DNA of 33,826 nucleotides. It comes from Sulfuricurvum sp. (GTDB taxonomy: Bacteria > Campylobacterota > Campylobacteria > Campylobacterales > Sulfurimonadaceae). The position numbers and the translations under genes were made by a program. The stretch spans positions 1 through 33,826 of the forward strand of contig NZ_JAHFAQ010000006.1 in assembly GCF_023250475.1 (NCBI RefSeq), given 5' to 3'. Of the stretch, positions 25,778 to 28,085 are shown piece by piece; position 1 is the stretch's first letter, and every line of letters begins with the position of its first letter. Below the pieces are notes generated by a model. The model was not told the DNA's origin, made no database searches, and worked only from the letters and a program-made list of their open reading frames with translations.

Positions 25778-27163
25778 ATGGAAAAGATGTGGTCCGGACG
25801 TTTCACACAAGATGCGTCAACCCTTTTGGAAAAATTTAATGCCTCGATCATGTTTGATCAAAAACTTTACCGTGAAGATATCGAAGGTTCAATCGCGCAT
25901 GCACAAATGTTGGCTCATCAAGGGATTTTAACCGATGAAGAGCGTATCTCAATCGAAAAAGGGATGGCTCAGGTGCTCAGTGAAATCGAGTCGGGTGTAT
26001 TCGAATGGAAAATCGGTGACGAAGATCTTCATATGGCAATTGAAAAACGGCTCACCGCTATCATCGGCGAAGCGGGAAAAAAACTTCATACGGCGCGCAG
26101 CCGTAACGATCAGGTCGCTCTTGATTTTCGTCGCTACGTACTCCGCAAAAATCGTGAGATTGTGGAACAGATTAAAGCTCTAATGGAAGTCGTTGTTGAT
26201 ATTGCCCGCGATCATACGTCAACTTTGTTGCCGGGTATGACTCATCTGCAGCACGCACAGCCGATTAACTTTGCATTCCACCTGCTCGCCTATGTCTCTA
26301 TGTTCAAACGTGATTGTGAGCGTTTTGAGAGCAGTGCGGAACGTAATAATATCTCTCCGATCGGATGTGCCGCACTCGCCGGGACACCCCACAATATCAA
26401 CCGAGAAATGACGGCGAAAAGCCTCGGATTTGATTCGGTAAGTATCAATTGTCTCGATACGGTGAGCGATCGCGATTTTGCCTTGGAGATTTTGTTTAAT
26501 ATCTCGACGCTCATGATGCATATTTCCCGTCTGGCGGAAGAGATTATTATGTGGTCAAGTTATGAATTCCGTTTTGTGGAACTTTCCGATCAGTATTCTA
26601 CCGGAAGCTCTATCATGCCTCAAAAGAAAAACCCCGATGTTCCTGAACTTCTTCGCGGCAAAACGGGCAGAGTATTCGGAAATCTTATGGGACTTTTGAC
26701 CGTAATGAAAGGGCTTCCTTTAGCTTACAACAAAGATACGCAAGAGGATAAAGAAGGGGTGTTTGACAGCGTTGAAACGGCTGAAATCTCTCTCGAAATT
26801 CTCCGTGAAGCCCTCAAAACTATGACCATCAAACCTCATAATATGGAACGTGCGTGTAAGCTTGGGCATCTGTCCGCTACCGATTTGGCCGATTATCTGG
26901 TTGAGCATTGCGGTGTACCGTTTCGTGAAGCGCACCACATTACCGGACGTGCGGTTGCCCGTGCCGAAGTACTCGGAATTGATCTAAGCGACATCGCGTA
27001 TTCGGAACTTCATGCGATTGATGATCGTATCAAAGAGGATGTTATCGCGTACTTGGGGATTGAGCACTCGATGAATGCTCGTACGTCTCAGGGGGGAACC
27101 GCACAATTGCGTACTCTGGAACAAATTATCTATTTTGACCATTATCTTAAGGATATCCGATGA
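25778..27163 (+). CDS. argH: ArgH, argininosuccinate lyase
   Basis: A 461-residue enzyme that splits argininosuccinate into arginine and fumarate. The N-terminal [21 protein letters not shown], the [14 protein letters not shown] stretch with the catalytic His, and the superfamily signature [11 protein letters not shown] (276-286) are all intact. Length matches the family. Transcribed from a -10 box at 25744 and overlapping osmC by ATGA; no other arg gene is near. Confidence 0.97.
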
Positions 27164-27624
27164 AAATCACCGTCTCTCACCAAGACGCAATGCGTTTTGA
27201 AGCCAAAACCGAAAAAAACAGTTTTATTATCGATTGTCCCCAAATCTCGCCGATCGAGTATTTTTTAAGCGGGATTATTACGTGCAGTGCGACCGATGTC
27301 GTAATGCTCCCTAAGCAGCAAGGATATGAGGTTAAAAATCTTGAAGTTTCGGGAGAAGTGGTTCGCAACGAGTCTGCACCGCGCAAGTTCAATGCTCTTC
27401 ATCTAGAATACCGATTTGAATCCGATGTGGACGATACACTTGCTGCACGCTGGGTAATGGCGAGTTTGGAGACCTACTGCTCAACGATCAATACGATTCG
27501 TGACACCACGGCGATCACTTACACGATTATCCATAACGGCAATATAATTCGTGAAAATGAAAAAATGATCAGCGGCGGTGGGAGCAGTGTCGATTTCGGT
27601 GCATTGCAAGGGTGTAATGCGTAA
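27160..27624 (+). CDS. OsmC/Ohr-family protein
   Basis: A 154-residue OsmC-fold protein of the YhfA-like group. The two redox cysteines of peroxide-reducing members are C42 ([15 protein letters not shown]) and C107 ([10 protein letters not shown]); both are present, so thiol-dependent hydroperoxide reduction is possible. The C-terminal GGGSS tail is unusual. It is translationally coupled to argH, a link without an obvious metabolic reason. The downstream gap holds a REP-like pair. Confidence 0.88.
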
Positions 27625-27633
27625 TCTGTTTTC

Positions 27634-27692
27634 GATTCCGTGTCGAGCACGGAATGACGAAATATTGTCATCCTGAACTTGATTCAGGATCT
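27634..27692. repeat. REP-like palindromes in inverted pair (BIME-like)
   Basis: Two palindromes of the same design face each other. Unit A (plus) has stem TTCCGTG/CACGGAA with loop TCGAG (27636-27654) followed by TGACGA. Unit B, read on the minus strand, has stem ATCCTGAA/TTCAGGAT with loop TCAAG (27670-27690) followed by TGACAA. Both share GAT-stem-TCRAG-stem-TGACRA, and the centre AATATT is itself palindromic. It lies between the convergent osmC and HIT genes, where it could also act as a bidirectional transcription end. Confidence 0.75.
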
Positions 27693-27705
27693 TAACTCTT
27701 TACAA

Positions 27706-28062
27706 TCAAAAAAAGTCTTTTGGATCAGCATCGGCAAAATGGCCCCATTTGAGCTTCGCTCCGCCGAGGATGTGGAAGTGCAGGTGTCCTACTTCCTGAG
27801 CGCCGTTTTCGCCGATATTACTGATGATACGGTACCCGCTCTCATCAATTCCGCACGTTTTGGCGACCTCTTGCATAAACGTTGACATTCTCCCCATCAC
27901 ATCACCCGGAATATCGTTGAAACTTTGATAATGCGCTTTCGGGATTGCTAAAACATGAACGGGCGCTTTTGGATTAATGTCATGAAACGCATAAAATTCT
28001 TCGTTTTCAGCTACGGTATTGGAAGGGATTTCTTTATGAATTATTTTACAGAAAATGCACAT
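27706..28062 (-). CDS. HIT-family nucleotide-binding protein
   Basis: A 118-residue histidine-triad protein. The triad HLHFH is at 93-97, with the zinc pair C2-x-x-C5 and the HINT-type stretch NPKAPVHVLAIPKAHY. It probably hydrolyses purine nucleoside phosphoramidates or AMP-linked substrates. ATG at 28062 is chosen because an ATGAGG site lies before it; the in-frame ATG at 28074 overlaps that site. It is divergent from pheS, an order seen in other Campylobacterota. Confidence 0.93.
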   Translation of the reverse strand: MCIFCKIIHKEIPSNTVAENEEFYAFHDINPKAPVHVLAIPKAHYQSFNDIPGDVMGRMSTFMQEVAKTCGIDESGYRIISNIGENGAQEVGHLHFHILGGAKLKWGHFADADPKDFF

Positions 28063-28085
28063 GTTTAACCTCATTTTTTTATGCT

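Follow-up and report, generated by a model that had tools for sequence, protein, structure and literature searches.

A probable tail-to-tail pair of CGTC-tagged REP elements between convergent OsmC-like and hinT-like genes of a Sulfuricurvum genome

What is the pair of short inverted palindromes that sits between two convergent genes in a Sulfuricurvum genome, and how did it come to lie there? The pair is found at positions 27634-27691 of the window, by which we mean the whole stretch of 33,826 nucleotides that was analysed. A preliminary description, made from the letters alone, had taken it for two diverged, inverted copies of one REP-like design around an AATATT centre, possibly dispersed by a Y1 transposase and used as a bidirectional transcript end. 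Its coordinates proved right to the base, and so did the inverted arrangement around AATATT, with both copies being exact matches to a single pattern. The REP-like design held up as well; what that description lacked is the exact class. We consider the pair very probably a tail-to-tail heterodimer of CGTC-tagged REPs with the geometry of family 2 of Di Nocera, De Gregorio and Rocco (2013; PMC3733652), and one which was inserted, or has grown, on this lineage. The features of the locus are as follows.

27160-27624, plus strand: OsmC-like gene, an open reading frame with sub-cut-off matches to NCBIfam OsmC models (E 3e-10)
27625-27705: gap from stop to stop, 81 bp, derived by comparison with relatives whose stops are 0-3 bp apart
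27634-27658, minus strand: REP unit 1, with tag CGTC, stem ATTCCGTG, loop CTCGA and tail C; exact pattern match
27659-27666: spacer GAAATATT between the two inward-facing tags, with AATATT at 27661-27666
27667-27691, plus strand: REP unit 2, with tag TGTC, stem ATCCTGAA, loop CTTGA and tail C; exact pattern match
27706-28074, minus strand: HIT-family (hinT-like) gene, an open reading frame with sub-cut-off matches to NCBIfam HIT models (E 7.5e-26)

Each unit is 25 bp long and, read from the tag, consists of GTC, an 8-bp stem arm (AT and six variable bases), the loop CTYGA, the other stem arm and a final C. Both units match GTCATYCNNNNCTYGANNNNGRATC exactly and are the sole matches in the window at 0-2 mismatches; with up to 3 mismatches the window holds five, a count reached by 0 of 100 shuffles. 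The stems of the two partners are unlike (TTCCGTG versus TCCTGAA), and the C of the 3′ tail is followed by GAA in unit 1 and by TTA in unit 2, while other copies end in CTAA, CTCA, CCAG or CCAT. A hairpin is predicted for each unit on either strand, and the 82-nt region folds better than its dinucleotide shuffles on both strands (z of -3.5 and -4.0). The OsmC-like and HIT-family genes run towards each other, and the pair lies 9 and 14 bp from their stop codons. The 3′ end of the OsmC-like gene itself, at 27599-27622, can form a potential 10-bp hairpin followed by AATCTGTTTT and was scored as terminator-like, in a scan whose total was not above chance; the LQGCNA protein end encoded there is kept in nearly all of the OsmC-like orthologues shown.

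The design is dispersed, as had been proposed. In the window's own genome (2.17 Mb in 185 contigs, 94.95% complete), GTCATYCNNNNCTYGANNNNGRATC matches 18 times when up to 2 mismatches are allowed, and the reversed control 0 times; a few of the weakest of the 18, among them C10:7132, C50:3071 and C134:15457, resemble chance hits. A wider pattern, GTCATNNNNNNCTYGANNNNNNATC, has 12 exact copies there, so the pattern is by no means unique in the genome. Across 41 genomes of the genus it has 396 exact copies, with 1 match for the control; 32 of the 41 genomes are occupied, and the number per genome ranges from 0 to 56. Matches to the unit at up to 1 mismatch were found in 22 of 25 congeneric genomes, compared with 0 of 16 from other families of the order. 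No Rfam family was matched above its threshold, the best score being 20.9 bits where the gathering score is 48, and a literature search with the sequence strings of the units returned no paper on such repeats, as judged by title.

Beyond the window's own genome, the exact 25-mer of unit 2 is present in at least 112 stretches of other genomes, 57 of which carry, in addition, units not identical to the query. Of the named records in this set, three titled Sulfuricurvum align with loci of the genus at about 76-82% DNA identity over 0.9-2.3 kb, and two titled Sulfurimonas at 64-71% over 0.3-2.2 kb. Among the matches listed, the record titles point to about 14 phylum-level groups, which we take to include Pseudomonadota, Bacteroidota, Campylobacterota, Elusimicrobiota, Spirochaetota, Ignavibacteria, Melainabacteria, several groups of the candidate phyla radiation, Armatimonadota, Thermotogota, Actinomycetota, Dehalococcoidia, Dadabacteria and delta-proteobacterial lineages. 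Some of these assignments may be wrong, because most of the carriers are metagenome bins; the clearly named isolates among the matches listed belong to Pseudomonadota and Bacteroidota. Six loci from other bacteria (L123, L159, L160, L162, L164 and L183) carry the units as regularly spaced, head-to-tail tandem series. One of these is chromosome 2 of Vibrio comitans (L164), whose five tandem units contrast with the inverted dimers of the Sulfuricurvum genus. Spread by phages or plasmids was considered and set aside, with 0 phage records and 1 plasmid record, from Sulfurovum mangrovi, over 34 matched bp; a viral contig collection held 6 stretches with the unit.

The unit hairpin is under constraint. 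In a set of 26 units (22 distinct) from the window's genome and the genome labelled G042, hand-chosen to span the stem types, 98.9% of the cells are paired and changes on both sides are seen in 7 of the 8 pairs. The stem covariation score is 0.578, compared with 0.152 in shuffles, none of which reached the observed value in 500 trials, and sliding the partner by a single column lowers the pairing to 30-42%. Tag, loop and tail are nearly constant across the units, and the stem varies by compensated pairs.

The copies lie mostly in gene gaps, which again agrees with what had been proposed. Under gene calls made by a simple longest-ORF method, which also served for the gap-structure sets described below, the 44 clusters of G042 comprise 23 in co-directional gaps, 13 in convergent gaps, 2 in divergent gaps and 6 inside open reading frames. 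Convergent gaps are enriched in this genome: they make up 13 of the 38 intergenic clusters, compared with 31 among the 286 junctions sampled (P 0.0004 by Fisher's test, and P 0.0007 when the comparison is with gaps of at least 30 bp), where the sample regions were hand-picked at round coordinates away from the listed units, a choice that may lower the sampled convergent share. The 12 clusters of the window's genome divide into 6 convergent, 4 co-directional, 0 divergent, 1 within an open reading frame and 1 at a contig end.

Two-unit clusters are mainly head-to-head. Head-to-head clusters outnumber tail-to-tail ones by 3 to 1 in the window's genome and by 17 to 3 in G042, and the window's own dimer, with its tags inside, is of the rarer tail-to-tail kind. 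The 51 exact head-to-head dimers, from 13 of the 41 genomes, are heterodimers without exception, where within-genome permutation would predict 5.1 homodimers (P 0.0024); counted on the 28 distinct stem pairs, the deficit is 0 versus 1.5 expected and is not significant (P 0.20). A 3-bp spacer is found in 22 of the 51, with the form TNA in 21 of the 22. Two candidate rules for the choice of partner were rejected. Loop-loop complementarity fell at the middle letters, which match in 30 of 51 dimers versus 26.6 expected (P 0.13). A special stem-pairing rule had been suggested by stem position 6, which matches between partners in 4 dimers versus 17.9 expected; this signal may be the copying of a few dimers, because it is no longer strong on the 28 distinct stem pairs (4 versus 8.0 expected, P 0.06).

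A separate observation concerns the loops. The 17-18 bp sequence CACGTGCCCTTTRGGGTA, or one near it, sits precisely between the CTT and the GA of the CGTC loop in four units, no two of which share a stem (L055 at 1470, L261 at 1076, L293 at 1387 and L302 at 2582). A degenerate form is found in L257 at 4123 (minus strand). In L068, at 1452 (minus strand), the sequence occupies the loop of a palindrome of another kind. In all, 6 of 14 regex matches in 1.7 Mb are loop-located, and the viral contig collection gave 0 matches to the insert. Either a nested element with these loops as its target or a long-loop subfamily may account for it.

The history of the pair can be read from the orthologous junctions. 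Of the 39 loci that gave a main hinT match we examined 38 and kept 23; 14 were excluded because they did not have the partner, the synteny or a gap below 400 bp, and L070 because of an apparent overlap of 246 bp. Nine of the 23 syntenic junctions are empty: 0 or 3 bp separate their stop codons. The nearest scorable relatives (G052, G041 and G023), which fall in the clade of the window's genome in a four-protein tree, have their stops 3 bp apart; G004 and G017 of the same clade were left unscored. Because the orthologous junctions of these nearest scorable relatives are empty, the 81-bp gap of the window is derived on this lineage. A 65-bp relative of the dimer, with 92% identity, is present at a different place in G004, beside what we take from its translation to be a biotin-carboxylase-like gene, which is what a mobile composite would lead one to expect. 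Neither a mechanism of insertion nor a duplicated target was found for the pair.

The other 13 filled orthologues hold palindromes which, assigned by eye, belong to several types: CGTC-1 with CGTC-3-like units (3), a TTCG...CGAA type (3), a GGGCTT type (2), a hairpin ending in GGGTAG (4) and one more type (1). When seven junction states are placed on the 23 tips, 13 changes are needed, compared with a mean of 13.2 for shuffled labels (P 0.59), and the turnover of the junction is fast, because the changes on the tree are no fewer than with shuffled labels. At ten further loci (L063, L065, L066, L073, L077, L079, L080, L081, L087 and L273), OsmC and hinT are separated by 590-1412 bp, part of it evidently coding, which stands in place of a palindrome.

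Is a hairpin generally needed at such junctions? A second junction (B), between a gene for 277 amino acids and an Mrp-like gene, gave 29 loci, 23 of them syntenic, with L306 set aside as a paralogue. All 23 syntenic gaps fold at -10 kcal/mol or better on both strands, by way of short plain hairpins in some and of CGTC or other repeats in others. The third, fabI-like junction (C; 30 loci of 40 genomes) has gaps from 3 bp to 270 bp and a similar variety of palindromes. The second and third junctions were picked for the presence of a unit in the window's genome. Junction D is an overlapping convergent one that lacks a unit. Filtering of its 30 loci, from 40 genomes, left 17 syntenic cases, of which 11 are shorter than 20 bp and some of the others hold other palindromes. 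In nine unselected convergent gaps of G042 the structure is no stronger than in other gaps. The idea that convergent gaps are structured in general was given up, since its apparent signal came from a set dominated by junctions chosen for holding such elements; a general need for a hairpin is likewise unsupported, because the nine unselected gaps have no excess and 9 of the 23 OsmC-hinT junctions do without one.

Some junctions are re-used by different palindromes. One may go further and propose that some convergent 3′-3′ junctions of the genus are exchange sites, gapless in some species and occupied in separate lineages by hairpin repeats of at least six palindrome types, namely CGTC-2, CGTC-1 with CGTC-3-like, TTCG...CGAA, GGGCTT, the GGGTAG-ending type and another, but we regard this as a tentative reading that is probably too strong. 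If it were true, hairpins of unrelated origin would be interchangeable as 3′-end structures, and the 17-18 bp element in hairpin loops would amount to a second layer of mobility.

A different account of the pair would make it a REP or REPIN of the classical sort, mobilised by a Y1 transposase of the RAYT type that is still resident or was lost recently. A hairpin whose tag is left unpaired at one end, and dimers of inverted units, do recall the GTAG REPs; Y1_Tnp matches above cut-off are found in 18 of the 41 congeneric genomes, and a mover that acts in trans, or was lost later, is conceivable. However, the window's genome, which is 94.95% complete, was searched for the RAYT-type Y1 gene suggested by the preliminary description and has no Y1_Tnp match at E <= 1. 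Copy number does not differ with Y1 presence across the 41 genomes (P 0.81); G005 and G024 carry 30 and 48 copies with no Y1 match. Nor was a unit found in the stretches around 15 Y1 matches, where L111 has one weak, chance-like match of 10 of 13. Six of the 177-aa RAYT-like Y1 genes of the genus, which start with MGRSRYK, were inspected (L101-L103, L105, L107 and L108). Palindromes of type CTCGTTCCCAAGCTCCAGCTTGGGAATGCATA lie beside them: a CTCGTTCCC...GGGAATGCATA-type palindrome stands on both sides in 5 of the 6, and downstream only in L101. These genes seem tied to another repeat family, because their flanking palindromes are of the CTCGTTCCCAAGCTCCAGCTTGGGAATGCATA type and differ from our unit. 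The missing Y1 link is in line with the 2013 paper, which states that CGTC repeats have no dedicated transposase and likewise found no flanking one (PMC3733652). Dispersal by a Y1 transposase, a part of the earlier account that failed, is on this evidence quite improbable.

It could also be held that the pair is a bidirectional intrinsic terminator of the two genes rather than a mobile repeat. The convergent position just past both stops and the hairpins on both strands speak for it, as do the plain short hairpins that stand at the second junction where other species have CGTC dimers. Against it, no terminator-like site, meaning a GC-rich hairpin with a U-tract behind it, was found at 27634-27691 on either strand, and there is no U-tract; about 400 copies are dispersed in the genus, 6 of the 44 G042 clusters lie inside open reading frames, and nine orthologous junctions have no element. 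We therefore think a terminator unlikely, if less so than a Y1-moved REPIN. As for a bidirectional transcript end, the position fits, but the pair has no site resembling an intrinsic terminator. Short palindromes are common in gene gaps, and chance has to be counted among the explanations; it is ruled out in practice, and retains a negligible probability, given the 396 exact copies versus 1 for the control, the covariation, and the recurrence of the 25-mer in other genomes.

We return, then, to the CGTC-tagged heterodimer. It would have been inserted, or have grown, between the stop codons of the OsmC-like and hinT-like genes after the split from the nearest relatives. The units may spread by a process that needs a single-stranded hairpin; recognition of such a hairpin is suggested because tag and loop are conserved with compensated stems. 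At this junction they presumably survive because a stop-to-stop site tolerates them. Once there, they would give each of the convergent transcripts two hairpins at its 3′ end. Such hairpins may impede 3′ exonucleases or read-through, although they would not be terminators of the canonical U-tract kind. Because there is no U-tract, a barrier to 3′ exonucleases or to the converging polymerase is favoured over intrinsic termination, and we hold a putative 3′-end effect and plain tolerance to be about equally probable. The pair is most likely a selfish repeat, a fresh occurrence of a kind already described, which is tolerated and perhaps used as a 3′-end hairpin.

Several points make the locus worth following. 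The genus is a tractable setting, with widely varying copy numbers and with empty and filled sites at one and the same junction, and its Y1 genes can be set aside as flanking partners of the units. The repeated refilling of OsmC-hinT by unrelated palindromes offers a testable route to the role of repeats at transcript ends. The two points to pursue are this refilling of one convergent junction and the short insert in hairpin loops.

Among known systems, the GTAG REPs and REPINs with their RAYT resemble the present units in the short hairpin, the tag on one side, the inverted dimers and the extragenic sites. A REPIN dimer is made of two near-identical REPs. The Sulfuricurvum units differ in the CGTC or TGTC tag, in a genome without a RAYT, and in dimer partners with different stems.

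The closer comparison is with the CGTC repeats, whose 2013 account describes a CGTC or TGTC tag, a stem of 8-9 bp starting with AT and a loop of 4-5 nt, with compensated stem variants and inverted dimers, heterodimers being common in families 2 and 3 (PMC3733652). In the parts of that account which deal with location and distribution, the repeats are found close to stop codons, in gaps whose genes converge or run in the same direction, and five phyla are listed for them; the main text names Sulfurovum NBC37-1, of the same phylum as our genome, and has 0 occurrences of "sulfuri" (PMC3733652). What propagates these REPs, and why dimer partners differ, was left open by its authors (PMC3733652), and later work on a mover of CGTC repeats was absent from the literature matches listed. 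The Neisseria dRS3 and the Rickettsia RPE-4 and RPE-6 elements are placed in the same super-family (PMC3733652), but they belong to CGTC-1 and CGTC-4, with a 4-nt loop or a 9-bp stem. In the nomenclature of that paper, a dimer with its tags inside is tail-to-tail and is called rare, and the 3′ tail is mostly CCA (PMC3733652). The dimer of the window is of this tail-to-tail kind, unlike the usual family 2, and its 3′ tail is not clearly CCA. In all else that we compared, it is like family 2: an unpaired tag at one end, CGTC in unit 1 and TGTC in unit 2; an 8-bp, AT-led stem with a 5-nt loop in both units, the eight pairs being supported by covariation; dispersed copies with compensated stems and, in the genus, mainly head-to-head heterodimers; and sites near stop codons in convergent or co-directional gaps, away from all 15 Y1 matches.
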